Shown: positions 20,134 through 38,739, numbered from the stretch's first letter. The stretch: DNA of 39,578 nucleotides from an uncultured Ignavibacteria bacterium (GCA_937944105.1 CALDZP010000007.1:133423-173000), one strand, 5' to 3'. Notes: generated by a model from the letters alone, not told the origin. A program made the numbers and translations.

Positions 20134-20173
20134 AAAAAATGTTGTCACCCTTAGAGAGACTAAGAGTGACAAC
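20133..20173 (-). terminator. Intrinsic terminator of the 12-gene envelope operon
   Basis: On the minus strand GTTGTCACTCTTAG pairs with CTAAGGGTGACAAC (arms at 20160-20173 and 20141-20154), a 14-bp stem with one U:G wobble and a 5-nt loop, followed by seven T. The same pair would be a C:A mismatch in a + strand RNA, so the structure favours leftward transcription. It lies just beyond the golvesin-like T9SS cargo gene. Confidence 0.92.
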
Positions 20174-20225
20174 ACAAAATAAATAATAAAAAATTATTAA
20201 TTACACAACTAAAGAACGTAATTAA

Positions 20226-22961
20226 TTATTTAAGCATCATCATCTTCATAGTTTTTACATATTTACCAGCCACTAAGCGATAAATATAAATACCACTTGA
20301 AACCCTAGCACCTACATTATTAGTTCCATCCCATTCAACTGAATGATAACCTGGTCTTAATTCTTCGTTTATTAATGTTCTAACTTCTCTACCAAGTATA
20401 TCATAAACTTTCAAAGTGACCTTTTCTGTAACAGGTAATCCAAATCTAATTATTGTTGAAGGATTGAATGGATTAGGGAAGTTTTGACTTAAGAAATATG
20501 TACTTGGAATAGCATCTGGATCAAAAATACCTACTGGTGCTGATGCTTCCTGTAAAATAATTGCATCTGCTCTTGTTACGAAACTATCTTGAAGTGCTCG
20601 ATTGACAACACTATCCTGATAATAAATATTTACTTCATTGTGATCGTTTATCAATCTTATATTACCATAGATAGTTCCACCGCCATAAATATCCTGACCA
20701 CCTCTTAAGAAAATATATCTTCCGAGGTAAATTCTTCCACTTGATGGAACATCGCCACCATAAGCTGTTGAATTCTGATTTTTCTTTACGATAGTTGTTC
20801 CACCAGTATGATTTATTTCATAAACCGCTACAGGATTTCCAGTACTTGATCCAGCTGGAACAACTGCCCAAACATCAAAGCTATCCGGTTCGACTGGTGG
20901 ATGACCAGGTTTTGATGGAAATCTCGGGAACCACTGAATAAATCTTAATGGATCATTTGGTGTTCCATTATATTGGCTACCATAAATGTAAGTAATTAAC
21001 CTATTGTTATTTGTCCCACTTCCTGTAATTCTTTGCCACCAGTTAAGATTAGTTAAGTTATTAGGATTCCAGTCAACAATTTGAGTACTTACATAAGTTG
21101 TTGGGTCTGAATCATCAACCAAAATATTTGTTCCAACTCCCTGACCTGATAAAGTAATATTAATATATCTATTGTTGACGGTATCATTTGTCCACATTCT
21201 TAAAGTTGCTGTGTGTAATCTAATTGAATCTGGTAAAAATGAAATTGTTAAATTAAAGACACCATCAATTGCGGGTAATGTTAATGGTAATGGAGGCATA
21301 TTTTCAATACGGAAATACATGCTATCTCGACCAATAATCATAATTGAATCTACAATCAAAGGAGTTTCACCATTGCTTCTAATTTGCAATCCTCTTTGAT
21401 AATTAAATTCTGCTAGTCTTATTGAATCATAAATAGAAACTGAACCAAAGCTTAAAATTCTATTTGTTGCATCTGCTGATGTAGAAGCTGTTGGAGCAAT
21501 TGGTAATAATCTAACTCTCAAAAGATCTGTTCTTAAGAAATTACCACTTGCTTGACCAGGATTTTCAAATTTAACATAGGTTACGCCACCACCGTTTAAG
21601 TCAAAAACTCTAGTATTATTATCTTGTATTTTTGCCCAGATAACTGAGCCTGTAACTTGCCTTTCATTAAAATTATAAACTCTTTGTGTATCAGCCATAA
21701 ATGGTGTAACAACAGAAATCGTTGCATTTGTCGCTGCATTTGGAGAACCAGATGGACCAGAATATTCCATTAAGTATTTACCTGCTAGAGTATCAGGTAT
21801 TTGAAAACCATATGTAGCACTTGGAAAGTCAGTTGTTCCAGTATAAACCCTACTATATTGATTTCCACCTGGTATTGGAAAGACAAAATTAGATTTAACA
21901 GAGTTCAACCATGCCTGATTACCAGTCTCAACATATGATGTTGGTTCAGGTGCATTCCAGTGAGGTTCATTTCCACTTGAGGCATTCATTATAAAGTTAT
22001 AATTAATACCTTCACCTCTCACAGGTAAGAATGCTTCCGGTTCCCAGGGATCATTACTATGAATTACCATAGAATCCTGAGTAATTTCCTCTCCCTTTGG
22101 AGAAAATCTAATTGTTAGCTCAGATTTACCGCCAGGTGGAATTACTAATGGCAAGTTTGTCACACATGAAAATCTATTGGTAGAAAAAGTAACATTTGAG
22201 ATTACAAGATCAGAGTCCCCAAGATTCCAAACTGGAATTTTCCTTTCAGTGTATTGATCCCATTTGAATGTTGTAACTGGAAAATCTTCGATCATTCTTG
22301 TAGTGTCAAAAGCCGTCATATGACGACGCCCGAATTCAAGATCGGGACCTGGACCGGGGCTTCTTAAAACTCGAATTGCATCAACACGCATAAATGCTGG
22401 TGTTAATGTATCTGCTCCAATTGTCACAATTAGACCTTTATCCGCTGCAGGGACATTTATAATTCCAAGAGGTTTCCAACTACCAGTTGAACCTGTCAAA
22501 ACATTATTACTCTGAATGTCATATCGAAAACTATCGGCTGTAACGCCCTCACCAAAACGTTTGAAAGTAACATAAGCATTGCTTGTTGCATTTCCAGTAA
22601 ATCCCATATAATGATATACTAAGTAATAGTCCGAAACTGGAATGTTAACATAGTAAGTTGCAGTAGCTCCATTTGGTGATCCTGCCGTTCTTGGTGTTCT
22701 ACGATGCGAGCCACCATACCAGGCAGATCCAATATTTGACCACCAACCATCTGTCTCGTTAGGAGTGCCTGCAATTGGTGGTGTCTCGCAATATGTAGAA
22801 TCATCACACAAAATTGTTCCTGGAGCGTTTGCTGTATGGTTGTCGTTAAGGTTATCGACAGTTATATAATTAGATGGATTTAGAATCTGCTGTGCCTTTG
22901 ATGGCATAGCGTAAAATGCAATTATTAAAGTTGCAAGAAAAATGTACTTCAATTTTAACAT
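20226..22961 (-). CDS. Golvesin-like secreted protein with T9SS sorting domain
   Basis: The 911-residue product has a signal peptide (about 1-23, PSKAQ). A golvesin-C-terminal-like domain follows (about 60-200, with DGWWSNIGSAWYGG and FMRVDAIRVLRS). Then come two choice-of-anchor/ASH-type immunoglobulin-like repeats with SNDPWEPEAFLPVRGEGIN and WTNDTVNNRYINITLSGQG, each preceded by a second golvesin-like or spacer segment. The last ~89 residues are a type A T9SS sorting domain: SQNFPNPFNPSTIIRF, VYDILGREVRTL and SSGIYIYRL. It is thus exported across the outer membrane and probably anchored at the surface. The ribosome site AAGGAGGT is the strongest in the operon, which suggests high expression. 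The precise role is unknown. Confidence 0.85.
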   Translation of the reverse strand: MLKLKYIFLATLIIAFYAMPSKAQQILNPSNYITVDNLNDNHTANAPGTILCDDSTYCETPPIAGTPNETDGWWSNIGSAWYGGSHRRTPRTAGSPNGATATYYVNIPVSDYYLVYHYMGFTGNATSNAYVTFKRFGEGVTADSFRYDIQSNNVLTGSTGSWKPLGIINVPAADKGLIVTIGADTLTPAFMRVDAIRVLRSPGPGPDLEFGRRHMTAFDTTRMIEDFPVTTFKWDQYTERKIPVWNLGDSDLVISNVTFSTNRFSCVTNLPLVIPPGGKSELTIRFSPKGEEITQDSMVIHSNDPWEPEAFLPVRGEGINYNFIMNASSGNEPHWNAPEPTSYVETGNQAWLNSVKSNFVFPIPGGNQYSRVYTGTTDFPSATYGFQIPDTLAGKYLMEYSGPSGSPNAATNATISVVTPFMADTQRVYNFNERQVTGSVIWAKIQDNNTRVFDLNGGGVTYVKFENPGQASGNFLRTDLLRVRLLPIAPTASTSADATNRILSFGSVSIYDSIRLAEFNYQRGLQIRSNGETPLIVDSIMIIGRDSMYFRIENMPPLPLTLPAIDGVFNLTISFLPDSIRLHTATLRMWTNDTVNNRYINITLSGQGVGTNILVDDSDPTTYVSTQIVDWNPNNLTNLNWWQRITGSGTNNNRLITYIYGSQYNGTPNDPLRFIQWFPRFPSKPGHPPVEPDSFDVWAVVPAGSSTGNPVAVYEINHTGGTTIVKKNQNSTAYGGDVPSSGRIYLGRYIFLRGGQDIYGGGTIYGNIRLINDHNEVNIYYQDSVVNRALQDSFVTRADAIILQEASAPVGIFDPDAIPSTYFLSQNFPNPFNPSTIIRFGLPVTEKVTLKVYDILGREVRTLINEELRPGYHSVEWDGTNNVGARVSSGIYIYRLVAGKYVKTMKMMMLK

Positions 22962-22974
22962 AGTACCTCCTTGG

Positions 22975-23406
22975 TTATTTAAGTTTTTTAACTGTTACAA
23001 TCAATGTGTCCGAAGGTGGTCCTACAAAAGACACTTTCACCCCCGTTCTAGAATCTGTTTTAGTTCCAATTGGAAAAACAAGGTAATATAACTTCAAAGA
23101 ATCACTTATAGTTGGTAATGCTGAATCTGAAAATGTAAAAGCTTTATAATTAGAAACAATAATTTTATAGTTATCAGGATTCTTTTGAGATCTATAAATT
23201 TCAAAATATCTAAGATTTGATGTATCGGCTAATTCCCAGCTCATTCTTACCCTTCTTTTTCCAGTAAATGTTGTATCGATGGCATCGAGTTTAAAATTTG
23301 AAACTTTTGGAATTATTGAGTAATGGTAAGGTGAAATTAAATCTTCGGTTTTTGAACAACCAAATAAAAATAAGAAAAGTAGATTTATTAATAATATTTT
23401 TTTCAT
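22975..23406 (-). CDS. Small lipoprotein with a fibronectin-III-like domain
   Basis: The 143-residue product begins with a lipoprotein signal ending at FLFGC (C17). The rest resembles one fibronectin type III domain: RRVRMSWELADTSNLRYFEI, then YRSQKNPDNYKII, then FSDSALP and a final strand SDTLIVTVKKLK. No enzymatic motif is seen. It lies 13 bp before the golvesin-like cargo gene and 10 bp after the DUF5683 gene, so it is part of the large operon. It may be a surface or periplasmic binding partner; I do not recognise a named family. Confidence 0.65.
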   Translation of the reverse strand: MKKILLINLLFLFLFGCSKTEDLISPYHYSIIPKVSNFKLDAIDTTFTGKRRVRMSWELADTSNLRYFEIYRSQKNPDNYKIIVSNYKAFTFSDSALPTISDSLKLYYLVFPIGTKTDSRTGVKVSFVGPPSDTLIVTVKKLK

Positions 23407-23416
23407 TTCTTCATCA

Positions 23417-24001
23417 CTAATTTATTGGGACAGAAATTTTCAATAATGTATAAAAATTATTATTCTGATAATTTGAAGAAAATTCTATTGGACCTTTGTC
23501 GTTTGTAAAGAAGAGATAATCAATCAGATTTGTAGACCAGATAATTGCTGTTGCTATTGCAAATATATTTCGAGCCCGTTCATGAATTTTCTGTTCATTG
23601 TGAACATCTAACATCTGTTTCCAGTAGTATTCTGCAAGGGTGTATCTATCAGCATTTAAATAATCAAACTTTAAAGTTTCAAGTCTTTCTCTATTACCTA
23701 CAAAATTATTTTGGGAAACAATTGATCCAACAAGACCTGTGAAAAAACTCACAGCAAATAATGCCCCCTTTGTTTTGTGACCAAGATAAATCTGACCACT
23801 TCCAGGTACAAAACTGCTATAAACTAAACCATTTATCCTTCTCGAATCAAATTTTGGTAACTTAAAAAAGTCGCTAAATAACTTTTCATCTCTTAACAGA
23901 TCATTATCTTTAATATTCTGAGACGTTTGAGCAGCTAAAAAATTCGATAAGAAAATTAAAGCGAGAATCGTAATTAATCTTAGTTTCATCTTTCCACTCA
24001 T
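23417..24001 (-). CDS. DUF5683-type membrane protein
   Basis: The 194-residue product has a signal peptide or first membrane segment (about 8-24) and the pattern YSSFVPGSGQIYLGHKTKGALF, typical of DUF5683 proteins of Bacteroidota and relatives, where the P-G-x-GQ-Y motif precedes a membrane helix. A second hydrophobic segment lies near ARNIFAIATAIIWSTNLIDYLFF. The ATG at 24001 overlaps the stop of the glycosidase gene as ATGA; a second ATG four codons in, behind GTGGAAAG, is an alternative. The family has no established function. Confidence 0.65.
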   Translation of the reverse strand: MSGKMKLRLITILALIFLSNFLAAQTSQNIKDNDLLRDEKLFSDFFKLPKFDSRRINGLVYSSFVPGSGQIYLGHKTKGALFAVSFFTGLVGSIVSQNNFVGNRERLETLKFDYLNADRYTLAEYYWKQMLDVHNEQKIHERARNIFAIATAIIWSTNLIDYLFFTNDKGPIEFSSNYQNNNFYTLLKISVPIN

Positions 24002-25863
24002 TTGATTAAAACTAATGTTTTGATTGAGGACCTACCGGTCGTTTTCAATTTATAGAAATAAATTCCACTCGAAATATTATAAAGTGTTGAATTAAATTCA
24101 ACTTCATACTCACCCGAATGTTGATATTCGTTAACTAAATCACAGACTTTTTGACCTAATAAATCATAAACTTCAAGTTGAACTTTTTCTGGATAAAACA
24201 ATCTATATCGAATTTTAGTTATACCATTAAACGGATTTGGATAATTTTGATATAAAACAGCTGTTTGAGGTAACTGAGTGAAATCGTACTCAATATTGGT
24301 TGTAACTACATTTGACAGCCCACTTTCATTATCCAGTTTGTCAAGTGCTGAAACCGCATAGTAATATATTTGATTTGTATCAGGAACTGTATCAAAGAAA
24401 AATGTATCAGCAGAGGCGGTTATTTTATATAAATGGGTATGATTATTCTGATCTACTGGTTGTGTTGCGCGGAATATATTATAATATTCAGCAGTCTCAC
24501 CGTCACTTGCAACCTGAGGTCTATTCCAGATTAATTTGTATCTATCAACACCAATTTTTTGAACGATTAAATTCGATGGATTATTTGGCGGAATATTATC
24601 CTTCCATGGCATTGGAGGAATATTCGCTGGATACTTAAATAAATCTAAAGCAAGAGAATCAAGATAATTAATTGAACTAACCATGCTTCTAAATCTAAAA
24701 AAATTAACACCAGCACCACCAATTAATCTTGTATATACGATTTGATTCTTCACTTCATTAAAATCCCCGAAGTTAGGTTCACCAATTCTATATGCAGCAA
24801 TTCCCATCCATGCTTGTCTACCACTTAAATTATTTTTCCACCAGGAAGCTATTTTTGTAAATTCAGGACATGTAGACATATTCCAGTAAATTTGTGGATT
24901 ATGGTAATCAATATAACCCTTAGAAGCCCATGCTTTAGGATCAGACCTCAGATGTGAATATAATTCCCAGACACTACAATTTAATCCCATTGCCGCAGCA
25001 GTATAGACACCTGGAGTTGTTGTTCCTATCTTTACCCATGGTTTATATTTTTTAACGGAATCAGCAACCATTTTCAACAAACGCTCAATGTTTAATCTTG
25101 CAAAATCATTTCGATTTAAATTCCACGGATTTCCATTTGCTGAATCAGTTCGATTAGTAAACCAGTAATTTGAAGCATCACCATAAAGTAAAACTTCATT
25201 GCCAAGATCAGTGTAACGGATAAAGTCAAAATGAATTCCATCTACATTATAATTTTTAACGATCTCAGTTGCCACATTTGCTATATGAGCTCGGACTGCA
25301 GGATTTCCTGGATCAAAGAAAAATCCACCATCACTTTTCATTTGTCCAGAGAGTGTTTTAGCAAACCATTCTGTTTTCCAGTATCTTTTACCAGCCGAAT
25401 CTTTAATAGCAGGATGTGGTGGATAAGTAATAACATTTAAATAAGCAGGCAAGGTATCCTGCAAAACATAAAAAGTATTAATCCATGCATGAACTTCTAT
25501 ATTATTTTGTTTTGCTCGCGTTATCAACTCAGATAATGGATTATACCCCGGACTCAATCCAAGATTATTTGGATCCTGACAGGGACTAAAACAAGTCAAA
25601 TTAGAAGCCCATGGTAAAAAATTCGATGAGTAATAAGCATCACCTCTTGCACTAACTTGAAAAACTATTGTATTAATGTTGGCTCTTTTGCAAGCATCTA
25701 CAAAAGATTGAATTTCTGCTCTTTGAGCCTGAACACCTTGAACGGTAGGAAAATCCAATCTTCCAGCTGTTGCAATCCAAACAGCTCTTACCTCTCTTCT
25801 CTGAGCATTCAGTTGAAAAGACAAAATCAAAATTAATCCAATAATGTAAACTATTCTATTCAT
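23998..25863 (-). CDS. GHL10-type glycoside hydrolase with FN3 and T9SS sorting domain
   Basis: From the ATG at 25863 the product has 621 residues; TTG and ATG codons further upstream overlap the previous gene and would spoil the signal peptide (about 1-20, FQLNAQ). The catalytic part (about 20-350) matches the GHL10/DUF187 family, which includes the peptidoglycan glycosidase DigH/YddW: REVRAVWIATAGRLDFP, ANINTIVFQVSARGDAYY, VHAWINTFYV and VDGIHFDFIRY. A fibronectin-III domain follows (about 430-515), then a T9SS type A tail with YQNYPNPFNGITKIRY, VYDLLGQKV and SSGIYFYKL. A cell-surface glycan hydrolase is likely; whether it cuts peptidoglycan is not shown. Confidence 0.85.
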   Translation of the reverse strand: MNRIVYIIGLILILSFQLNAQRREVRAVWIATAGRLDFPTVQGVQAQRAEIQSFVDACKRANINTIVFQVSARGDAYYSSNFLPWASNLTCFSPCQDPNNLGLSPGYNPLSELITRAKQNNIEVHAWINTFYVLQDTLPAYLNVITYPPHPAIKDSAGKRYWKTEWFAKTLSGQMKSDGGFFFDPGNPAVRAHIANVATEIVKNYNVDGIHFDFIRYTDLGNEVLLYGDASNYWFTNRTDSANGNPWNLNRNDFARLNIERLLKMVADSVKKYKPWVKIGTTTPGVYTAAAMGLNCSVWELYSHLRSDPKAWASKGYIDYHNPQIYWNMSTCPEFTKIASWWKNNLSGRQAWMGIAAYRIGEPNFGDFNEVKNQIVYTRLIGGAGVNFFRFRSMVSSINYLDSLALDLFKYPANIPPMPWKDNIPPNNPSNLIVQKIGVDRYKLIWNRPQVASDGETAEYYNIFRATQPVDQNNHTHLYKITASADTFFFDTVPDTNQIYYYAVSALDKLDNESGLSNVVTTNIEYDFTQLPQTAVLYQNYPNPFNGITKIRYRLFYPEKVQLEVYDLLGQKVCDLVNEYQHSGEYEVEFNSTLYNISSGIYFYKLKTTGRSSIKTLVLIK

Positions 25864-25867
25864 TTTC

Positions 25868-27331
25868 TTATTTTTTGTTATTAGCAACATATTCAACAAT
25901 ATTTAAACCAAAATTTAAAGCTTCAGCGCTTTCCGATTTTTCTGGCCAGAGTGATACATAACCCTTGTTTGAAATTATCGCAACCAACTTCCCATCGACA
26001 AATAATCCATCCAGAATATCATTTTTACCAACTTTAGGATTAACATCATCAAAACCTTTTGGCAATTGATAAAATGTGTTGGGTTTTTTAAATATGGGAT
26101 GATCAATTGATATGCGTTTTAATTCTTTTTTCCCCTTAAGGCGATTGGAAATTTGATTAACTATATCTATCATCGATTGATAATATGGCCAATCGACAGT
26201 GACAAATGTGTTATCAAAATATAATAATCCCCCATTTTGAATTACACTTGCAAGCTTATCAAACATAACAGAACTAACATCTGGTTTACCGTAGCCACCA
26301 ATAATCATAACAATATCTGTTTTATTTACATCAAGAGCATCAATTGTTGAGCGATTAAATATACAATTCACCTGTCCCTTTGAATTAATAAACCTCACAA
26401 GTTCAGGAATTGCTTCAGGTAATGGATTCCATGTCTCAAGAGCTTGGTATCTTGACTCCGACGAGGTGTACTGCAGTTGCACAATATTCAATTGCTTCAA
26501 TTTTTTTAATGTATCGATCTTTACAACTCCAGTGGTATCAAAAACTCTTACTCCAGCAATCCAGTTTTTATCAAGTTTTGTTTTTCTGAAATAGAAGGAA
26601 TAATTAGCAAACTTATCTGGTTCATTATTCTCATTGTAACCTAAAACAAATTTTCTTAATGTCAGTTTTATTCTTTCAACAGATTCATCAACTGGATCAA
26701 AAACGATAAAACCTTCCCTGTAATCACCTGCATAAATTGGTTTACCATAAGTTAGCATTGTTCTCCTCACAATTCCCATTCGTGATTCAAAAACATCATC
26801 ATCAATCCCGCTTGAACCTTTCCTTTTCAAGAAATATTCTTCAATACTTTGATAACGAGCATCTTTTTTCTCTCGACCGTAGGCATTTAGTTTATCACCT
26901 CTATCTGTCTCAAGTAAAGCTTCCTCAGGGTCAATATTTATTTTAGAACTTGAATAATTATAAACTGTTACTTTGAAAACAGTAAATCTTTGGGGAGTAA
27001 ATCCTTTTTCAGGATCAACCCAATCACCATAAGTGTATGGATTCTTTGAATAGAAGCCTCCTTTCGAATCTTCAGGAAACTCAAAAGTATTTAATTGATA
27101 ATCTGTCATGTATTTGACTTCAATTTTAAAATCTTTTTTATCCATTATCAGTGTTAAACTATCTTTCGAAAAACGATAGGTAGAATCACAAAAGAATAGA
27201 GTATTTTCTTTGTCTGGAATAAACATAAATTCGACTCTCTCTGGAGGCATAAAAATATATCGGTAAATTGAATCACAACCATAAAGAAAGAATAAAGAAA
27301 GCAAAACGAATAATATGATTTTATTTTTCAT
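25868..27331 (-). CDS. DUF4159-domain lipoprotein
   Basis: The 487-residue product has a lipoprotein signal ending at FLYGC (C19). Residues ~30-270 form a beta-rich domain I do not recognise, with FTPQRFTVFKVTVYNYSS and AGDYREGFIVFDP. Residues ~281-483 are a DUF4159 domain: LNIVQLQYTS, TDIVMIIGGYGKP, QNGGLLYFDNTF, HPIF, LDGLFVDGKLVAIISNKGY and NFGLNIVEYV. Each block lines up with the neighbouring DUF4159 protein encoded just upstream. DUF4159 resembles class I glutamine-amidotransferase-like folds, but no Cys-His-Glu triad is visible. The ATGA overlap with the upstream gene implies coupled translation and perhaps a heteromeric pair. Confidence 0.8.
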   Translation of the reverse strand: MKNKIILFVLLSLFFLYGCDSIYRYIFMPPERVEFMFIPDKENTLFFCDSTYRFSKDSLTLIMDKKDFKIEVKYMTDYQLNTFEFPEDSKGGFYSKNPYTYGDWVDPEKGFTPQRFTVFKVTVYNYSSSKINIDPEEALLETDRGDKLNAYGREKKDARYQSIEEYFLKRKGSSGIDDDVFESRMGIVRRTMLTYGKPIYAGDYREGFIVFDPVDESVERIKLTLRKFVLGYNENNEPDKFANYSFYFRKTKLDKNWIAGVRVFDTTGVVKIDTLKKLKQLNIVQLQYTSSESRYQALETWNPLPEAIPELVRFINSKGQVNCIFNRSTIDALDVNKTDIVMIIGGYGKPDVSSVMFDKLASVIQNGGLLYFDNTFVTVDWPYYQSMIDIVNQISNRLKGKKELKRISIDHPIFKKPNTFYQLPKGFDDVNPKVGKNDILDGLFVDGKLVAIISNKGYVSLWPEKSESAEALNFGLNIVEYVANNKK

Positions 27332-28644
27332 TTGTTCAACTCTGCCGCAACTTTTTGTTTGTTTTTATCTATTATACCACCTTTTTGGGTAGCTGCAAAT
27401 ACAATAATATTTAAGCCAAGTTGTAATTGCCTTGTATTATCTTGAGGACCACCAAAACTCGCAGGATTTTTTAGCCAATCGCCCCAGGCTCTTGAGTATC
27501 CTTTACTTGACAATACTACAGCTAATCTTCCATTTAGAAAAACTCCCTCAAGATATTTATATCGTTCAGGAACAGGTTTTAATCTTTGAGCAGGATTTGG
27601 GTTAGCCAGTGCCATTCCATTTGGTCTTATGTTATCATCACCAGCAGGGGGACCATCAAAATCTTCCCATGCATGATAGATTGGATGATTGTTTGGAATT
27701 CGTTCAAATACTGCATCAAATCCGAGTGCATCTTTGATTAATTGTCGAGCTTTTCTATTAAATGATCCAGACTCGTAGGCAAAAGCATCATCAATAAAAA
27801 GAAATCCACCTTCTCTAAGATACTTTCCTAAATTTTGTGCTTCTTCTTTTGTGTAAATTGGTTCAGCTCGATAACCAATCATAAAAATTATTGGAATATT
27901 CAATAATTCTTTTGAGTCAAGTCGAATACTTCCCTTTAATGTAACCTTAATTTTTGTATTATTATTAATGAAATCTGCGAGATTTTGTAAAGCTTGAGGA
28001 ATACAATTCCAACCTGGTTGATTATTATCTTCTACTTTACTACCACGATATTCAAGTTGATAAAATTCAATAAATCCACTCACATCTTTTTTATTAGCTC
28101 CTTGATCAATCATACCTGAAAATCTATCCTGAAAATTCATCCAATCAATTAAATTATCTTTTAACCCCGATACACCACGTTTAGAGGACATTCTTGTATT
28201 TTCAACTTCCATTTGAATGTTGGGACCATAAAATTGAGCTTGCTGAGGTGACCAGGATCTATCAACATAATCGCCAGGTCTGCCAAGCGAAGCCAATGCA
28301 CTTCCACCATGAGTTACCGCTGTAGTCATTGTCCTTGGCATTGTAGCCATTCGAGTTTTTTGAGGCATCAATCTTTGCATTGTTCTTTCAACAATTTTCG
28401 GTGACTTCTGTAACTCAAGCTGTTTCTGAAGTCGTGGTGCTCTTTGTATAAATTTTACAGTTGTTGGTGGACGCTTAACTTCTTTAATGCTTTCTACATA
28501 TTTAATATTCAATATTACAGGGAGAAAGTGAATTAAAAATGAAATCAAAATAAAAATAAGTAAATGTTTTCTGTAATATTTCAGAAAAGCTTTTAGTTTA
28601 CGACTTATTTCTGAACCTGGAATACTTATCGAATTAATTGGCAT
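27328..28644 (-). CDS. TonB-like membrane-anchored DUF4159 protein
   Basis: The 438-residue product has the architecture of an energy transducer. There is a short cytosolic N-terminus, one membrane helix (about 27-47, LLIFILISFLIHFLPVIL), then a basic/proline-containing linker (about 50-130, KEVKRPPTTVKFIQRAPR) as in TonB or TolA. The periplasmic C-terminus (about 188-417) is a DUF4159 domain: GFIEFYQLEYRGS, PIIFMIGYRAEP, REGGFLFIDDAF, HPIYHAWEDFDGPP, LEGVFLNGRLAVVLSSKGY and LGLNIIVFAAT. No TonB C-terminal domain is present. It follows exbD by 12 bp and overlaps the second DUF4159 gene by 4 bp. I infer it is the partner driven by ExbB/ExbD. Confidence 0.82.
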   Translation of the reverse strand: MPINSISIPGSEISRKLKAFLKYYRKHLLIFILISFLIHFLPVILNIKYVESIKEVKRPPTTVKFIQRAPRLQKQLELQKSPKIVERTMQRLMPQKTRMATMPRTMTTAVTHGGSALASLGRPGDYVDRSWSPQQAQFYGPNIQMEVENTRMSSKRGVSGLKDNLIDWMNFQDRFSGMIDQGANKKDVSGFIEFYQLEYRGSKVEDNNQPGWNCIPQALQNLADFINNNTKIKVTLKGSIRLDSKELLNIPIIFMIGYRAEPIYTKEEAQNLGKYLREGGFLFIDDAFAYESGSFNRKARQLIKDALGFDAVFERIPNNHPIYHAWEDFDGPPAGDDNIRPNGMALANPNPAQRLKPVPERYKYLEGVFLNGRLAVVLSSKGYSRAWGDWLKNPASFGGPQDNTRQLQLGLNIIVFAATQKGGIIDKNKQKVAAELNK

Positions 28645-29071: not shown

Positions 29072-29941
29072 TTATTTATATCCCAGTGATTTTAATACTT
29101 CTTCTTCTAATTTTTTACCTTCTTCGTCGGATATATTTAGTTCAATTCTCTTTTGTTTCAAAAATTCTTCCTCTTCTTTATTAAGGACACCATCACGATA
29201 AGCAGTCTTTAGCATTTCTTTGTAAGTTGAAAATCTTGCTAAATCTTTTAAAATCAAATTGACAAAATGATTTGTAAATGGTTCAACATACTTAACTAAT
29301 TTCATCGCTCTTCGTTTTAAAAAACTATAACCTATCACTGATGGAATAGCCACGATTAAACCACCAGCAGTTGTTATCAAAGCAACTGAAATACCACCCG
29401 CAACTACTGCTGGATCACCTTTACCGCCTTTGGCAATCTCGTCGAATGACATAATCATTCCAAGAATAGTTCCTAACAAACCAAGAAGTGTTGCCACACT
29501 CGCAATTGTATTTACTACTGGCAAAAATTCCTCAAAATATTCTTCTGCTGCTTCATCACCAGTATCGAGCAACTCGTTTCTCATATCTAATATTGGTCTT
29601 TTTTCCACAACTAGAAAATTAAATCTCTTCAAAATCTGCAAGAAAACATAACCAAGAACACCTTTATTTTTTTCACACCACTGAATAATTGGTTCAACGC
29701 TACCAAACCTATTTAATAAATCCTGAAGTTCATCTAAGATTTGATTAGCCTTATTCTCTTTTGGCACTGAATAATAACGATAAAGTCTTTCAATTATAAT
29801 TCCCAGCGATACTATTGAAAAAAATAAAAGTGGATACATTATATACCATCCACCTTTATTTAAAATTTCAACTAACCAGTTTTCGGTTAACCAGCTTTGT
29901 ATTGTATTTTCAGCCTGCAGAATTATTAGCAATGTTTCCAA
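29072..29941 (-). CDS. exbB: ExbB/TolQ/MotA-family proton-channel subunit with C-terminal extension
   Basis: The start is a TTG at 29941, fixed by a GGAGG 7 nt upstream (29949-29953); an earlier TTG overlaps the TPR gene and lacks a ribosome site. The product has 289 residues. Helices lie near residues 32-52 (YIMYPLLFFSIVSLGIIIERLYR) and in the paired MotA/TolQ/ExbB segment (VNTIASVATLLGLLGTILGMI, then VVAGGISVALITTAGGLIVAIP). Beyond the last helix, a charged extension of ~50 residues runs to the end (YRDGVLNKEEEEFLKQKR, then LNISDEEGKKLEEEVL). Such a DG-x-x-x-x-E-x-x-x-L pattern recalls TerB or EF-hand-like helices. It powers ExbD-linked rotation by the proton gradient. Confidence 0.92.
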   Translation of the reverse strand: METLLIILQAENTIQSWLTENWLVEILNKGGWYIMYPLLFFSIVSLGIIIERLYRYYSVPKENKANQILDELQDLLNRFGSVEPIIQWCEKNKGVLGYVFLQILKRFNFLVVEKRPILDMRNELLDTGDEAAEEYFEEFLPVVNTIASVATLLGLLGTILGMIMSFDEIAKGGKGDPAVVAGGISVALITTAGGLIVAIPSVIGYSFLKRRAMKLVKYVEPFTNHFVNLILKDLARFSTYKEMLKTAYRDGVLNKEEEEFLKQKRIELNISDEEGKKLEEEVLKSLGYK

Positions 29942-29964
29942 GGTTATTCCTCCATTAAAAATTT

Positions 29965-32900
29965 TTATTGATTTTCTAACCAATCTTTATGTTCTTTAGC
30001 AAAGAAATAAGCAGCTCGTTCATTTTCATCTTTGCTGTTTTCATATAATTTTATTACTTCATTATACCATTGAATTGCTTCCCTCTTCTTATTCAACATT
30101 TCATAAGAAGCGGCGATATTAACTCTACATCCAACAGCAACACTAGCATCTGGATATTTCTTTAGAACTTTCATTAATTCTTCAATTGCTTTTTCATAAT
30201 TCCTTTCATCAAAATATTTCATTGCTTTTTCATACTCCAGGTAAGAATTAATCTGACTCAAATCATATAATAATTCATCAACTTCTTGTATTTTTTCATA
30301 ATTTGGAAATCTCTTCTTTAACTCCGAATAATAAACTGCTGCATTTTGATAATCTTTTATGTTATAATAATAATCCCCAATTGTAAATAATCCGTGTGGT
30401 GCGTATTCACTATTTGGATATCTTTGAGCTAATGTTTTAAATGTTTCTATCATACTTTCAGGTTTTTGTAATTCGTAATAACACCATCCTTCATTGTACA
30501 TGGCGGCTGCAGCAAGATCAGATTTCGGATAACGCCTGTAAGTTAACTGATATTCCCGAATAGCTTGTTCAAATTTTTTTAAGTTAAACATGCATTCACC
30601 AGCATAATATTGCATCTCAGGCGATCTTAAATCTTGTGGATAAAGCGATACAAAAGTTTTCATTGAGTTATAAGCTCCTTGCCAATCTCCAATCTCATAC
30701 TGAGCATAAGCTCTGAACATTATCGCATCTTTTTTATGAATACCTTCTGGATATTGACTCAAGTATTTGTTAAACACTTTGATAGCCTGTTCGTATTCTT
30801 GATTGTCATAATAAAGTGCTGCCAGCTGAAATAATATGTCTTGGATTTCTGGAGCATTCGGAAATTTGTTTGCCGCTTCAGACAACAATTCACCAGATTT
30901 TTTCAAATCTCCAAGTTCTTTATAACTATTTGCAAGATTTATATAATTAGTAATAATTATGGAAGTATCAATTCCTGCAACTGCCAGTGATTTGTTAGCA
31001 AAATCAATACTTTCTTTATACTTTCCGCCTTCGAAATAAACTGTTGATAGAATTGAATAATACTTCCCTTTTTGAATTTCATCTGAAGTTTGGTTAATTA
31101 AATTATTAAAGATAGAAATTCCCTTTTCGAGATTTCCAACTTTTGCATACGAAAGTGCAAGCTTTTCATATGCGTTATCTAAATTCTGAGAAAAAATATT
31201 TTTAAAAGTCTGACTTGATAAAATTTTCTCCAGATCTACAATTGCATCTTCAAATTTTTCCACTTGATATGAAATTATACCTTTTACATATAGAACCTGT
31301 AAAGCGAAAGTTTCTCTTTTATCAAATAGAGATGAATCAGATAAAATTTTGTTCAAATACTCCAGAGCAAGTTTATAATCACCTTTGTTAATATATAGAT
31401 CAGCAAAATTGAAATAAATATCATTAATGATATTAACAGAATCTTTTTGCTTTTCTGCAAGCTCAAGAATACTTTGCAAAAATTTTTCACCACTATCAAA
31501 TTCTGAACGAGCTGAATAAATTTTGGAGATTTTATTAACAGCCCCAGGAAAATAAGGTGATAAGAAACTTATATTATCAAAAATCGCAATCGCCTCATCG
31601 TATCTTTTCATGTCTGCGAGAGTAATCAACTTATAATAAAATGCTTCATTTCTGTCAATTTTATCTTTATAATTATTCAAGGCTTCATCGATAACTTCAA
31701 GAGCTGAGGAATAATCACCAAGCTTATAAAAAGTAAATCCAAGTTGAACTTTTGCACTTGCCACTTCGTCTGATTTCGGGAAATTTGAAATAAGAGCTTC
31801 CAGCGTTTTTCTTGCTCCCTGATAATCTCCTGCAAAATTCAATGCTGATGCTTTGATATTAAAAACTGAAGGAATTAAATCTGAATAAGCATACTTTGAA
31901 ATAAAGGAATCACAGTGCGCAATTGCTCTGTTAAAATCTTTTCCATTATAATAATTAAGAATAACAGCCATTTTTGCTTTATCGACACTAAAATCAATTG
32001 CTTCAGCAACAGATTCATAACTATTTATATAAAAATCATATTCTTCCGCTGCCTTCTTAAACATTTTTGCATTCTGATATGTCTCTGCAATTTTATACTG
32101 GAGTTTTGCTTGAAGCTTCTTATTTGCAAAATTCAAATCAATCGCATCACGATAAACATGAATTGCTTCTTCAAGTCCTTTCTCTTCCAATGTATAATCT
32201 GCAATTTTAATCCATGCAACTTCCTGTAAGCTCGGTATAAGCGTGAAAGTAGTAATAATTTTTCTGTAATAAGAAATTGACGCTTCAAAATTTCGAAGCT
32301 TCCTGTATGAGTCACCAATTTTGATATACGCTTTAGCAACCAATTCAAGATCTGTAGTTTCAACATCTCTTCCTTCTGTAACCTCAAATAATCTTCTCTC
32401 TTTTTCAGCTTTTAATTCAATCTTTTCCCAATCAGTTTTAGTAAATATTTCAGGTTGGAATTTGTCAATTAAATGAAGCCAGTGCTTAAGTGCCTCGTTA
32501 TAATTCCCCATATCAAAATAATTCTGAGCAATCTGATACAAAGCACGAGCATAATATTCTGTATTTGGATATTTGATCAGTAATTTCTCAAATATGACAG
32601 TTGAACTATCAAGTTTATTCAATTCTCGATACGCCCAGGCGGCATCATAAAGTGCCTGCTCAGATTTCTTTTCACCTGGAAACTTTATAAATAACTTAAA
32701 AGCTTCTTCTATCGCTTCATCATAGCGACCAATTTTATAGTAAATGTCATAAATCTGAAATTGTGCTAAAGCTGCCAGTTTTGGTTCATCTTTTCTCAAA
32801 GAAACTAATTTGAAATAATAAATAGCCGAATCGGGATTGTCCATTTGCTTGAATGCATTCCCTTTCATATATGTAGCAGCAGCTCTTACGCTTATAATAA

Positions 32901-33111
32901 ACTCATTATTTAATATCCCTACTTTAATTGAGTCTTCATTAACAAATTTGCTTTCAGTATAAAGAATATAATCATACATTCTGATCGCATTTTTATAATC
33001 CCGAGAAACAAAATAATTCTGTCCCGCTTGAAATGCATTCTTAAATTCCTGCGGTGTTGGAATAAAAAGACTTGCAACTGTCGCAACTAAAAATACAATT
33101 AACTTCCACAT
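29965..33111 (-). CDS. Very long TPR protein, probably periplasmic
   Basis: From the ATG at 33111 the product has 1048 residues (a TTG two codons earlier is possible). A hydrophobic N-terminus (about 3-18) serves as signal or anchor. Almost all the rest is tetratricopeptide repeats, about 20-25 of them. Examples are YDEAIEEAFKLFIKFPGEKK, NEALKHWLHLIDKFQPE, YKLALEYLNKILSD and YEQAIKVFNKYLSQYPEG. The last third has the TolA-Pal/YbgF-like spacing with RYPKSDLAAAAMYNEGWCYY and RYPNSEYAPHGLFTIGDYYY. Such proteins act as protein-binding scaffolds. It sits between an outer-membrane protein gene and exbB, so a bridging role across the periplasm is a reasonable inference. Confidence 0.8.
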   Translation of the reverse strand: MWKLIVFLVATVASLFIPTPQEFKNAFQAGQNYFVSRDYKNAIRMYDYILYTESKFVNEDSIKVGILNNEFIISVRAAATYMKGNAFKQMDNPDSAIYYFKLVSLRKDEPKLAALAQFQIYDIYYKIGRYDEAIEEAFKLFIKFPGEKKSEQALYDAAWAYRELNKLDSSTVIFEKLLIKYPNTEYYARALYQIAQNYFDMGNYNEALKHWLHLIDKFQPEIFTKTDWEKIELKAEKERRLFEVTEGRDVETTDLELVAKAYIKIGDSYRKLRNFEASISYYRKIITTFTLIPSLQEVAWIKIADYTLEEKGLEEAIHVYRDAIDLNFANKKLQAKLQYKIAETYQNAKMFKKAAEEYDFYINSYESVAEAIDFSVDKAKMAVILNYYNGKDFNRAIAHCDSFISKYAYSDLIPSVFNIKASALNFAGDYQGARKTLEALISNFPKSDEVASAKVQLGFTFYKLGDYSSALEVIDEALNNYKDKIDRNEAFYYKLITLADMKRYDEAIAIFDNISFLSPYFPGAVNKISKIYSARSEFDSGEKFLQSILELAEKQKDSVNIINDIYFNFADLYINKGDYKLALEYLNKILSDSSLFDKRETFALQVLYVKGIISYQVEKFEDAIVDLEKILSSQTFKNIFSQNLDNAYEKLALSYAKVGNLEKGISIFNNLINQTSDEIQKGKYYSILSTVYFEGGKYKESIDFANKSLAVAGIDTSIIITNYINLANSYKELGDLKKSGELLSEAANKFPNAPEIQDILFQLAALYYDNQEYEQAIKVFNKYLSQYPEGIHKKDAIMFRAYAQYEIGDWQGAYNSMKTFVSLYPQDLRSPEMQYYAGECMFNLKKFEQAIREYQLTYRRYPKSDLAAAAMYNEGWCYYELQKPESMIETFKTLAQRYPNSEYAPHGLFTIGDYYYNIKDYQNAAVYYSELKKRFPNYEKIQEVDELLYDLSQINSYLEYEKAMKYFDERNYEKAIEELMKVLKKYPDASVAVGCRVNIAASYEMLNKKREAIQWYNEVIKLYENSKDENERAAYFFAKEHKDWLENQ

Positions 33112-33117
33112 AATCAA

Positions 33118-36081
33118 TTAGAAACCAGTATAAATTGAGAAGTAAAGAGTTGATTCTTCTCGTCCTTTAAATCTATCTTCTTCACGTTTGAAATCTCTCG
33201 TTGTATATTTATATCCAAAATCAATAACTATGTTATACCCAGCATATTGAGATTTATTACTCACAGAAAAAGCAACCGTTCTTCGATCTTCACTCTCAAA
33301 ATTATCTTTGAGATTTCTTATTCTATAAGCTAAAGGAGAAACACCTTTTAAGAATGTGATTCCTTGCATTCCAAAATGTAATGTAGTATTCTGAGTTAAC
33401 CTGTAATCAACTCTAATTATTGGTATTGTCTCTTGAAGATGTTTGTTTATTATCGTTATCTTCTCTCCATCTCTATTTTCAGTAAACTTAGATGATTTTT
33501 CGGTCCTAATTTTAAATTGTGGTGTAACTTTCAATAAATTATTTAGAAATGAAAACTCATACTCAATTTTATTGACCATTCCAAAGAAAGATATTTTACC
33601 TTCAACCTGATCATTTAATAATCTGCTTTCATTTGCAAATGCAAGCAATCTATTTCCCTGAGGAAATTGACGATTTAATTGTAATCTTAAATTGTTTTCA
33701 ATTCTAAGACCTGGAATTTGTGTATAACTTGTTCCAATATATAAATTATTAACAAGACTATTTTTATAAAGAAGTGGATCAAGAACATAATCAGGGAAAG
33801 GATCAGCTGTGGTAATAACCCCTGGAAATTGATAACAATCATTTGGAATATTGTCTTTAACTTGTTTCAGTACATAAAAAATCCTTAATGACCCAAATTT
33901 CGGAGTTTCTGTATAGTAAGTTAACTTGAAATAGTTAACATAATTTTTACCACCTTTTAATAAACCTTCTTCTCTTAAAAGTCCAAAACCTAAATTTAAA
34001 TTTTTAATCAATTCTAAAGTGGTAAATAAATGATAGCCTTTCTGGTCAGGTGTATAAGGATAATCAGGTAAAATGTCATTCTCCTGTTCATCAATAACAT
34101 CATTATTATTCCAATCATCACCATAATCAAGACTTGGTGGATCGGAATAGAAAGTTAAAAAGTCTTGAGCATAATCAGGAATACCATCAGCATTTTTATC
34201 ATCATCAGGAATTCCATCTCGATCACGATCTTTGCCAGGAAAAATTCCAGTATCTGGCCTCCTCAATATAGTAGCTAAACTTACAAGTTCATTTGTATTC
34301 TGTCGATAACCCAATAAGAAGAAATCACCTACTTTGTTCAGAACATCTCTATTCTTACCACGAGAATCTGTAGTGAAAACATTATAATGATAAAATCCAT
34401 CTTCCCATCGATCGTTATCGTCATTATCATCTACTAAAGCATAATAAGCACCACCAGGAATTATTGCACCACTGCTTGATACATCATAACCAAGAAAATC
34501 AGGGAAAATTGGATTTGGTATTAAATTATCTGATGGTGAACTGTAAAAACTATTTTCGAGAGTATAAATATTCAAAGCAGTAGTGTATGTTCCATCGATT
34601 CGATAAATTTCACCACCTAATGTCAATCGCCCTAACTTTTTCTTTCCTCTTAGAAACCAGGCTTGACCAATAACATCCTGCTCTTCGCCTGATTTACCAG
34701 TAAACCTTCTGTCACGAATTATTGGATATTTGAAATGTTCAACACTTCTGTTAAACTCACCTTCAATTTCAAAACCTTTCCAATTAAAAGTAAAATTAAA
34801 TCCATAAACTTCCATTCCTGTCACAAGTCCATAAGAAAAAGTAACAATTTGTTTGTTTGATGCATCTGTTACATTTCCTTCGGCTCGTCGAATTGTCCTA
34901 AAAGGAGTTGGTGTTGCATATAAATCAGGATCAGTATGAGATTGAAATCTTGCATCGCCTGTATATTCATCAAGTCTATTCAACCAGTCATGCGCAATAT
35001 CAATCCTGTAATCATTTGCAAGAACAAGTTGAAATTGAACCGATGTTGCACCTTCGGGAATTACAAATGCATAAGTTATATTCTCACCATCTCTACTGCC
35101 AATTTTAACTGGATAAGTTGGTGGAAAAGTAGAATAACGATCACGATAATTTATATATCTTGTAAAACTTGTCGTATCTGCACCAGCAAAAAAATCTTTA
35201 GCATTGATCCAGAAATTTTTAAATACCCAATATTGAATGGGATCGTTTAAGGTGGTTGCACCAGAACTTGGAACACTTCCATGAATATTTTTAATTGGTC
35301 GAGCTACTCCATTTATTATTACGGTTGGTGGCTGAAATAAAATTGGTCCCGATAGATCACCCGGGCTATCATCGCTGATTCTAATAAAAATAACCCTTGG
35401 AATTGCATTTGAAACTACACCCTTAATTGACGATTCTCTCGAATCAATACTTGCTCTTCTCTGATGTTGATTAATATAAGTTATTCCAACAGTTAAAATA
35501 TCACCAATATCAGTTTCAAAATGTCCACCAAGTAAATATTGTGTCCAATCTCTAATTCTTCTAACACCATCCGAATAAAAGCCCTGATCGAATCTAAATC
35601 TAATTGGATCACTAATTCTTGAAAGCAAAATCGTTCCACGATTCTTAGCAGTCGCTCCATCCCATCGAATTCCATTAAATCTTGCTTTATCTAAAGTAAG
35701 GCTTGTAAATTTTGTTCTTATCGCATCACCAACCATTAATCTGGTTGTAAATCCGCCGTAGCTATCATTTCCAATGACTAAATTGCTAAAATAATTTTCA
35801 TAGTACCTCGATTTTAAGAAATTACTTTGACCACCAGGAATGTTCTGATCGATTGCTTGCTTCTGTTGCTCATTAAACTCAATTACAGGATAACCCTCAA
35901 TTAAGAAATTACCAAAATTATCAAAAAACTTTTTCTTCTCAATTTTAGAGCTGTAGTTTTCGTAATTCCTTCCAGAAAGATTTATATATTTTTCTTCTTC
36001 CTTGCCAAGATTTGAAATAAATTGCGCTTTAATATTTGTAATAAGGCTAAATAAAATCATCAAAGTAAATATTCTTTTCAC
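33118..36081 (-). CDS. Large outer-membrane protein with calcium-binding-like loop
   Basis: The 987-residue product starts at a GTG with GGAGG 5 nt upstream and has a signal peptide (about 1-19, ITNIKAQF). The body is rich in alternating amphipathic strands with aromatic ends and closes with LYFSIYTGF, a C-terminal phenylalanine typical of outer-membrane barrels. A segment near residues 613-640 holds DRDGIPDDDKNADGIPD, a thrombospondin-type-3 / EF-hand-like calcium loop, and DDNDDNDRWEDG lies upstream of it. I do not recognise a named family. The size and context suggest a surface platform, perhaps distantly like SprA-type T9SS translocons, but this is only a guess. Confidence 0.65.
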   Translation of the reverse strand: MKRIFTLMILFSLITNIKAQFISNLGKEEEKYINLSGRNYENYSSKIEKKKFFDNFGNFLIEGYPVIEFNEQQKQAIDQNIPGGQSNFLKSRYYENYFSNLVIGNDSYGGFTTRLMVGDAIRTKFTSLTLDKARFNGIRWDGATAKNRGTILLSRISDPIRFRFDQGFYSDGVRRIRDWTQYLLGGHFETDIGDILTVGITYINQHQRRASIDSRESSIKGVVSNAIPRVIFIRISDDSPGDLSGPILFQPPTVIINGVARPIKNIHGSVPSSGATTLNDPIQYWVFKNFWINAKDFFAGADTTSFTRYINYRDRYSTFPPTYPVKIGSRDGENITYAFVIPEGATSVQFQLVLANDYRIDIAHDWLNRLDEYTGDARFQSHTDPDLYATPTPFRTIRRAEGNVTDASNKQIVTFSYGLVTGMEVYGFNFTFNWKGFEIEGEFNRSVEHFKYPIIRDRRFTGKSGEEQDVIGQAWFLRGKKKLGRLTLGGEIYRIDGTYTTALNIYTLENSFYSSPSDNLIPNPIFPDFLGYDVSSSGAIIPGGAYYALVDDNDDNDRWEDGFYHYNVFTTDSRGKNRDVLNKVGDFFLLGYRQNTNELVSLATILRRPDTGIFPGKDRDRDGIPDDDKNADGIPDYAQDFLTFYSDPPSLDYGDDWNNNDVIDEQENDILPDYPYTPDQKGYHLFTTLELIKNLNLGFGLLREEGLLKGGKNYVNYFKLTYYTETPKFGSLRIFYVLKQVKDNIPNDCYQFPGVITTADPFPDYVLDPLLYKNSLVNNLYIGTSYTQIPGLRIENNLRLQLNRQFPQGNRLLAFANESRLLNDQVEGKISFFGMVNKIEYEFSFLNNLLKVTPQFKIRTEKSSKFTENRDGEKITIINKHLQETIPIIRVDYRLTQNTTLHFGMQGITFLKGVSPLAYRIRNLKDNFESEDRRTVAFSVSNKSQYAGYNIVIDFGYKYTTRDFKREEDRFKGREESTLYFSIYTGF

Positions 36082-37026: not shown

Positions 37027-38739
37027 TTAATAAACTACTGTTACAATTTTTGCGACCTGTTCTGTTTTTGTATCAGCTTCTACAATGACCTGCACAATAT
37101 ATGGACCTGGCTTTACCATTTTTCCCTTCTGATCTTTACCATCCCATTCAAATGAATTTTGTGCTATAAAAGCAGCTGCTCCCGATTCAGAGTTATAAAT
37201 CTCTCTTATCAATCTACCTTGAAGATCATAAACGTGTATCCTTAATTTCCTTAATTCTCCACCAACTAAATTTTTTGGTTCAGCTATATTCGCTAAGAAA
37301 AATGTAAGAGATGTTTTATCATTTAAACCATCTCCGTTTGGAGTAAATGGATTTGGTTCTGCCTTAAAATCAATTATTAATCTGGGAGGAACACCAGTCG
37401 TCAGAACGCTCCAGCTCTCAATCCCACCAGATTTTTTTGTATCGACCCTCTGAGGATTATCTGCACTTTGTTTACTGTGTAAGTAAGAAACAAATCGATT
37501 GACTCCAAGAAATGGAGTACATCTTAATAATGCTTCAAATGTCGATGTCGTTGTAATTGGATTTTGTGGTATTATTATAATTTTATTGGAATAAATAATG
37601 GACGAGTAAGTTATTGGATTTCCGTTTAATTTTACACCAAGTAATTGAGTTGGTGTTGGAGTAAAAATTGTGATCGTATCAATCGGAAAATCATTTGCAC
37701 TTTTTTGTATTTCTATTTTATAAGTAAAATTATTCTCCTGAAGAATCGGTGAATATTGAGGTTCTATTGAAGCATCAGTACTTTGAGCAATTAATGTTTT
37801 GTCGTAAAAAACTTCTACCTCTTCGATTTTCGGAGTAAGTAAAGTTAATGTACCTAATCTAACTTGATATTGCATATACCTTCTCGGTTCATAAACTGGT
37901 AATTGAGCACCACTAATTGTAGTTGAATCTTCGGACCAATCACTCCATGTTGAATCAGGTTTGGGAGTATTACCAGTTCTCATTTTAAATGAAATCTGAG
38001 TTCCTTCCGGTTGCTCTGCTTTCCAATTTATTTTATACCAGTTTACTGGTTGACCAGCATCTTTAACATTTGAAGTGAAATAACCTTCGGGCAAATAACC
38101 TTTTCCAAAAACTTCTATCTCCGAAATTACAGTACTTTGAACCTGATCAATTACATCAATTGTAATTTTAAGAAATCTTATTTCCACAACTCGTTCAAAA
38201 TAATCATCAGTAACCCCAAGAGTGTTTTCCGGAACTTGAACCAACTTTTCCATAGATAAAGTATCAAGTCCACCATATATTGTATAAGCTCTAACTCTAA
38301 GGTTGGTAGGAATATTTGTAGGTCCTCCAGGATAAAACCCAAGTTGCCAGATCCTAACTCGGTTTACTGCTCTAACAGCCTGCAAATCAATAACTATATA
38401 AGTTCCTTCACCACCAGGTCCAGCATTTAATGAAAGAATCTGAACATAAGAAGGTGAAAAGAATTTTCCATCAATTAATTTAAGAGCATTCCTTGCACCT
38501 GTATCAGGTGGTAAAATTCTGCTTTTATAAACTATGTAAGCAAATTTGTTTCTTGCTAAGTTTTCATTTTCACCTGTTTGCAATAAAAGTTTCCCACGTT
38601 CTGTTTTCCAATCAATTGCTGTTGTCAGTGATGAATCAACAGAATTGTCATTCCATGTTGTATCTTTTATTGAAAATTGTGAAAACGCTGTGCATGAAGT
38701 GAATAAAATTATAAGTAAGGATAAAATATTTCTTTTCAT
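37027..38739 (-). CDS. Secreted discoidin-domain protein with FlgD-Ig-like C-terminus
   Basis: The 570-residue product has a signal peptide (MKRNILSLLIILFTSCTAFSQ); C16 might be lipidated, but the lipobox is poor and cleavage after AFSQ is also good. Residues ~60-215 look like an F5/8-type C (discoidin) domain, with YIVIDLQAVRAVNRVRIWQ and ISEIEVFGKG. A middle Ig-like region follows. The last ~110 residues, from PNPFTPNGDGLNDKTSL through VYDLQGRLIREI and GPYIVQVIVEA, match the FlgD-Ig / gliding-associated C-terminal fold used by exported proteins of T9SS bacteria. It is the first gene of the 12-gene operon. Discoidin domains usually bind glycans or lipids. Confidence 0.75.
   Translation of the reverse strand: MKRNILSLLIILFTSCTAFSQFSIKDTTWNDNSVDSSLTTAIDWKTERGKLLLQTGENENLARNKFAYIVYKSRILPPDTGARNALKLIDGKFFSPSYVQILSLNAGPGGEGTYIVIDLQAVRAVNRVRIWQLGFYPGGPTNIPTNLRVRAYTIYGGLDTLSMEKLVQVPENTLGVTDDYFERVVEIRFLKITIDVIDQVQSTVISEIEVFGKGYLPEGYFTSNVKDAGQPVNWYKINWKAEQPEGTQISFKMRTGNTPKPDSTWSDWSEDSTTISGAQLPVYEPRRYMQYQVRLGTLTLLTPKIEEVEVFYDKTLIAQSTDASIEPQYSPILQENNFTYKIEIQKSANDFPIDTITIFTPTPTQLLGVKLNGNPITYSSIIYSNKIIIIPQNPITTTSTFEALLRCTPFLGVNRFVSYLHSKQSADNPQRVDTKKSGGIESWSVLTTGVPPRLIIDFKAEPNPFTPNGDGLNDKTSLTFFLANIAEPKNLVGGELRKLRIHVYDLQGRLIREIYNSESGAAAFIAQNSFEWDGKDQKGKMVKPGPYIVQVIVEADTKTEQVAKIVTVVY

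Follow-up and report, generated by a model that had tools for sequence, protein, structure and literature searches.

Transducers for ExbBD and TolQR motors have, to our knowledge, long been regarded as limited to TonB and TolA. TonB-like transducers tipped with a vWA domain have been described more recently; these proteins are encoded beside TPR, tolQ-like and tolR-like genes, and their function is unknown (Williams-Jones et al. 2025; PMC12204202). In TolA, residue H22 is essential for motor binding, as evidenced by the H22A substitution (PMC12965293), and the H20A variant of TonB is inactive (PMC11658791). Here we analysed a 39,578-nt stretch of DNA from an uncultured Ignavibacteria bacterium (GCA_937944105.1, CALDZP010000007.1:133423-173000; the window). 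It suggests that a class of Bacteroidota has a version of TonB, the protein that ordinarily conveys power from the inner membrane to the outer, whose end has been exchanged for the uncharacterised domain DUF4159, and that this version is accompanied by a proton motor of its own and by several outer-membrane proteins. The original prediction made from this sequence, that no system of this kind had been described, was too strong in view of the vWA-tipped transducers described in 2025 (PMC12204202).

The locus is a run of 12 genes on the minus strand, extending from 38739 to 20226 with intergenic gaps of -32 to +25 nt (Table 1), compared with the four genes recognised originally. Two of them, here called P1 and P2, lie directly 3' of exbB-exbD and overlap each other by 4 nt; the coordinates first assigned to them (28644-27328 and 27331-25868, respectively) were exact. 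In profile searches the motor proteins matched Pfam MotA_ExbB (E 1e-27) and Pfam ExbD (E 2e-34), and ExbD retains the essential Asp of its helix, as ExbB does its pore Thr motifs; the TTG start assigned to ExbB overlaps the TPR gene and is uncertain. The GHL10 gene between P2 and the DUF5683 gene was seen in the window's own family only, the same place being without GHL10 in the other families seen.

Table 1. Features of the gene cluster in the window, in gene order from first to last, with parts of P1 and P2 listed below their genes.
Feature	Position	Strand
570 aa protein with C-terminal Ig/T9SS-sorting-like domain; first gene of cluster	37027..38739	-
PorV/PorQ-like outer-membrane protein, 301 aa	36107..37012	-
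Strongly conserved 987 aa protein outside known families, ending in Phe; probable outer-membrane barrel	33118..36081	-
TPR protein, 1050 aa; in every locus with sufficient contig	29965..33117	-
ExbB; TTG start uncertain, pore Thr motifs kept	29072..29983	-
ExbD; proton-carrying Asp kept (MTPMID)	28657..29070	-
P1, TonB-like transducer with DUF4159 end, 438 aa	27328..28644	-
P1 transmembrane core, residues 27-47, Ser35-xxx-His39	28504..28566	-
P1 disordered basic/proline linker, residues 52-165	28150..28491	-
P1 DUF4159 domain, residues 207-417	27394..28026	-
P2, lipoprotein (Cys19) with N-terminal beta-sandwich and DUF4159, 487 aa	25868..27331	-
P2 DUF4159 domain, residues 298-482, poorly conserved	25886..26440	-
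GHL10 glycoside-hydrolase-like protein with T9SS tail	23998..25899	-
DUF5683 protein	23417..24001	-
Small lipoprotein-like cluster protein	22975..23406	-
Secreted protein of 911 aa bearing a T9SS sorting tail; cluster's last gene	20226..22961	-
Terminator-like hairpin, 16 pairs, 3' of last gene	20139..20175	-

P1 has the TonB/TolA-like layout originally proposed for it, namely an anchor made of one helix, a linker that is basic and disordered, and DUF4159 at the C-terminal end. Its first 26 residues, with a net charge of +5, precede the hydrophobic core, and in the AlphaFold model a helix spanning residues 11-50 is followed by a low-confidence linker that carries a net charge of +12 and 9 prolines. 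DUF4159 was the sole domain detected in P1 by Pfam scan, with no match to the TonB C-terminal domain (PF03544). The assignment of both C-termini to DUF4159 (PF13709) was confirmed by Pfam profile search, with scores of 98.3 bits for P1 (E 6e-28) and 39.0 bits for P2 (E 8e-10) against a curated cut-off of 25.9 bits, and the proposed paralogy of the two domains was recovered by BLASTP (E 4e-17, 23% identity over 229 columns). P2 is a lipoprotein, as had been predicted, with an invariant G18-C19 lipobox and a beta-sandwich N-domain ahead of the weaker DUF4159. For both DUF4159 models, which were built on shallow alignments of 17 and 12 sequences, the best fold match in Foldseek was crystal structure 4i66 (P1, E 7.5e-12, TM-score 0.80; P2, E 6.4e-8, TM-score 0.77, normalised by target length), followed in the case of P1 by weaker similarity to folds of the GATase/ThuA/IFT52 type. 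A vWA domain was not found in P1 by Pfam family match, and the 50 best fold matches included no evident vWA. Neither DUF4159 nor Hoch_4089 turned up in the papers searched. Elsewhere in the genome a third, ordinary DUF4159 gene encodes a stand-alone protein of 218 aa with a signal peptide; it lies upstream of a large membrane protein, away from ExbB/ExbD (L001, 1429-2085).

A transmembrane His preceded at -4 by Ser or Ala, (S/A)xxxH, was present in 27 of 27 distinct P1 anchors. The full SHLS motif was not kept in these anchors, only the His and the -4 residue being retained and the +7 Leu and +11 Ser not being conserved; most genuine TonBs of these genomes likewise lack the +7 Leu and +11 Ser. 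When the type II anchors (those of gene orders B, C and D, below) were compared with the N-terminus of genuine TonB, the best pair reached 40% over 55 aa, and a profile comparison of P1 and TonB anchors gave a short match (84% probability, 30 columns). One TonB N-terminus used as a query retrieved P1s from among 8,273 ORFs at E 4.5e-4, as against 0.35 for the reversed set, and the other two of the three queries did not find P1 with significance among the same ORFs. Because these searches were only modestly significant, we count them as supporting rather than decisive.

Linkage of P1 to ExbB-ExbD was found at 21 distinct loci, in four gene orders and with at least two unrelated ExbB lineages; the genomes used were mostly metagenome assemblies, and contigs that by length and position repeated those listed (L107, L116-L118, L120 and L123) were left out of the count. 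Order A, TPR-ExbB-ExbD-P1-P2, was seen seven times (the window, L045, L046, L047, L048, L104 and L106), and order A2, the same but for an added lipoprotein gene (280 aa) separating P1 from P2, six times (L110-L115). In order B (n = 6; L056-L059, L121 and L053, the last with its cluster split over two contigs) ExbB-ExbD-ExbD heads the cluster and P1-P2 lies behind the TPR gene, and in order D (n = 2; L108 and L109) the arrangement is TPR-P1-ExbB-ExbD-ExbD-PstS-like-P2. Six further P1 loci have no motor in the locus (order C; L049, L050, L052, L054, L055 and L060), although only 2 of the 6 have enough flank for its absence to be judged. The extra lipoprotein of order A2 (L110, 14714-15553; corresponding position in L111-L115) had no Pfam match and resembles, by eye, the P2 N-domain without DUF4159.

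The neighbourhood recurs in many genomes, but within our sample it is confined to one class. Full-length relatives of P1 were found on 16 contigs of the genome collection, labelled Ignavibacteria, Ignavibacteriales, Ignavibacteriae, Bacteroidota or 'Bacteroidetes bacterium'. With the 987 aa protein as marker, 29 of the 294 genomes sampled from the class were found to have the locus (~10%; 16 of 152 genera), as were 5 of 395 genomes drawn from the phylum, all five belonging to the same class. In a phylum sample of 247 genomes, DUF4159 matches outside these loci cover the DUF4159 part of P1 without the anchor, and ordinary DUF4159 loci from the phylum, 20 of which served as a control, never had ExbB or ExbD within about 5 kb. 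Outside the phylum, no exbB-exbD-DUF4159 arrangement occurred among plasmid records, where DUF4159 was present on two (Gemmatirosa and Corynebacterium) and beside a motor on neither. The second of these, pCRULAC1 of Corynebacterium crudilactis, is an unexpected host for the domain; its DUF4159 gene (L064, 5917-6534) lies amid resistance genes and insertion sequences and encodes a protein 49% identical to the window genome's ordinary copy.

The motors at these loci have different ancestries. In the ExbB tree the ExbBs of orders A and A2 form one lineage, and those of orders B and D fall among the ExbBs of TonB operons (fork 100/100). Genuine Ton operons of these genomes read ExbB-ExbD-ExbD-TonB-PstS-like lipoprotein (L065, L066, L068 and L072). 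Order D has this PstS-like gene after ExbD but no TonB, and its P1 gene adjoins ExbB. In order B, which likewise lacks TonB there, the complete module fills the interval from ExbD to the PstS-like gene, the latter closing it. TonB_C genes were present elsewhere in every genome tested, and none was found in the locus in those genomes, nor was there a TonB_C match in the window. The window genome has one TonB behind its own ExbB-ExbD and a second that is an orphan, which by elimination would pair with an orphan tandem ExbB-ExbD-ExbD set. The original prediction that P1 takes the role of TonB for the adjacent ExbB/ExbD is thus supported by the recurrence of the linkage, the docking His, the placement of the other TonBs with other motors and the occupation of the TonB slot. 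The PstS-like lipoprotein itself often adjoins ExbB-ExbD-ExbD, with TonB or without it (L065, L066, L068, L072, L108, L109, L053, L056, L057 and L059).

The two order D loci carry P1s of mixed affinity. In the DUF4159 tree order D falls inside order A (91/86), and the DUF4159 domains of L108 and L109 are 72-74% identical to those of L046 and L048, whereas the anchor and linker of the same proteins align poorly with those of L046 and L048 (score 71-86) and far better with the anchors of orders B and C (score 215-287). Since order D thus has a tip like that of order A, an anchor and linker like those of orders B and C, and a different type of motor, the motor and the anchor changed together and the tip stayed. 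Such an exchange comes close to a natural domain-swap test, and the joint exchange of anchor and motor is the strongest sequence evidence that the P1 anchor works with the adjacent motor. It also makes the specificity between anchor and motor directly testable.

Among the other cluster products, the 987 aa protein is 52-62% identical across families and gave no match in Pfam, PDB sequences or PADLOC. It contains an Asp-rich stretch of the DxDxDGxPD type with many invariant residues (about residues 617-668) and ends in Phe in the fashion of outer-membrane barrels; a barrel is the probable structure, and the protein becomes a candidate for a proton-driven outer-membrane machine. Its identification as SprA was not supported, a separate SprA being present in the genome. 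Assignment of the cluster to a defence system (Zorya or other) was also rejected, PADLOC returning 0 families for five cluster proteins.

Taken together, the architecture of P1, its His signature, the linkage to motors in four orders, the co-exchange of anchor and motor and the occupation of the TonB slot, all of them read from sequence, make it likely that P1 acts as a TonB/TolA-type transducer driven by protons, in which DUF4159 replaces the usual C-terminal domain and ExbB-ExbD would supply the proton motive force. The (S/A)xxxH face of its single helix would be the site of docking on ExbB, with the disordered linker crossing the periplasm, and the DUF4159 domain, as the working tip, would receive the transferred force and pull on, or remodel, an outer-membrane assembly encoded by the same cluster, for which P2, the TPR protein, the putative 987 aa barrel and the PorV-like protein are the candidates. 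The evidence for coupling to the motor is good. The evidence on purpose is that of gene order, from which the target would be the outer-membrane proteins of the cluster and not a nutrient receptor, with the partner of the tip probably among the cluster's products. The order C lineage would have to share a motor encoded elsewhere. A broader reading, to which we give slightly less than an even chance, is that periplasmic force transducers have a third major branch, next to TonB/TolA and to the vWA type, in which a DUF4159 tip energises a dedicated outer-membrane surface machine, made up of the 987 aa barrel, the PorV-like protein, a TPR scaffold and the lipoproteins, and does not serve nutrient import.

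A transducing role for P1 has to be weighed against the view that P1 is a binding protein or enzyme anchored in the inner membrane, whose only tie to the motor is co-transcription, the motor itself serving another TonB encoded elsewhere. The presence of TonB_C proteins elsewhere in all genomes tested, the one lineage without a linked motor and the resemblance of the DUF4159 fold to GATase/ThuA-like folds fit such a view, but linkage to two unrelated motor types, the exchange of the anchor along with the motor, the invariance of the transmembrane His and the absence of TonB at precisely that slot make it very unlikely. A separate issue is what the P1 tip touches. The original prediction had an anchored DUF4159 contacting a lipidated one, that is, a heterodimeric handshake of P1 and P2 that would carry force across the periplasm to the outer membrane. 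The two domains are indeed paralogous and share a fold, and P2 is present in every locus with sufficient contig; however, P2 varies most in its DUF4159 domain (32.4% mean identity, 8 of 188 positions invariant, versus 59.9% and 67 of 233 for the N-domain), several genes separate P1 and P2 in one lineage, and in another the intervening lipoprotein resembles, on visual inspection, a bare P2 N-domain. Because the conserved part of P2 is its N-domain and its DUF4159 is the least conserved, P1 is at least equally likely to partner with the N-domain or with some other protein, and contact between the two DUF4159 domains is possible, not favoured; we regard the handshake as unlikely.

The purpose of the P1 transducer could also lie in type IX secretion, with the motor and P1 energising cargo release or surface attachment by way of the PorV-like protein and the putative 987 aa barrel, and this reading can be held together with the transducer mechanism, as it concerns purpose. 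A T9SS link is plausible because the cluster encodes a PorV/PorQ-like protein and T9SS-sorted cargo at both of its ends and because SprA is encoded elsewhere (7 of 7 genomes tested). The known T9SS motor is, however, GldL-GldM, not ExbB-ExbD, and the PorV-like protein scores below the curated cut-off. Pfam and NCBIfam scans found no GldK, GldL, GldM, GldN or SprA in the locus, SprA_N being found elsewhere in the genome. Moreover, with 29 of 294 genomes of the class carrying it, the locus is too rare for a core T9SS part, and an accessory role in type IX secretion seems to us somewhat unlikely.

When set against established systems, the P1 locus shares with TonB-ExbB-ExbD the motor genes, an (S/A)xxxH anchor helix, a proline-containing linker and, in two lineages, the same operon slot, but P1 is without the TonB C-terminal domain and no TonB-dependent receptor was recognised in the cluster. 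As in Tol-Pal (TolQ-TolR-TolA, TolB, Pal and CpoB), a motor, a transducer, a TPR protein and a lipoprotein are encoded together, although no Pal/OmpA or TolB domain was found among the cluster proteins and the tip is unrelated to that of TolA. The AglRQS-Glt gliding machinery of Myxococcus likewise combines an ExbB/ExbD-type motor with a TonB-like transducer, GltG, and with TPR and outer-membrane proteins; it differs in that GltG keeps TonB_C and adds FHA and in that the motor and Glt genes occupy separate clusters (PMC3169522). Stand-alone DUF4159 proteins (PF13709; 4i66, Hoch_4089) have the domain and fold in common with P1, whereas the ordinary copies sampled are short and none is near ExbB/ExbD (0 of 20); the role proposed here for P1 would be the first functional hypothesis for DUF4159. 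An exchange of the tip with the motor interface intact would further point to a modular system with tips beyond those already described. The vWA-tipped transducers have a TonB/TolA-like His helix, a disordered linker of ~100 residues and a Rossmann-like tip that is not that of TonB, and are encoded next to TPR, tolQ-like and tolR-like genes (PMC12204202), all of which they share with P1 and its locus; the paper nowhere uses the word 'DUF' (PMC12204202). They differ in the tip, which in P1 is a 4i66-like DUF4159 and not vWA, and in the neighbourhood, to which the P1 locus adds a paralogous lipoprotein and conserved genes for the PorV-like protein and the 987 aa putative outer-membrane protein. 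Since P1 lacks vWA, it is not a member of that family, although it follows the same plan. The closest precedent of P1 is the vWA-tipped transducer family, and what is new here is a different tip, DUF4159.
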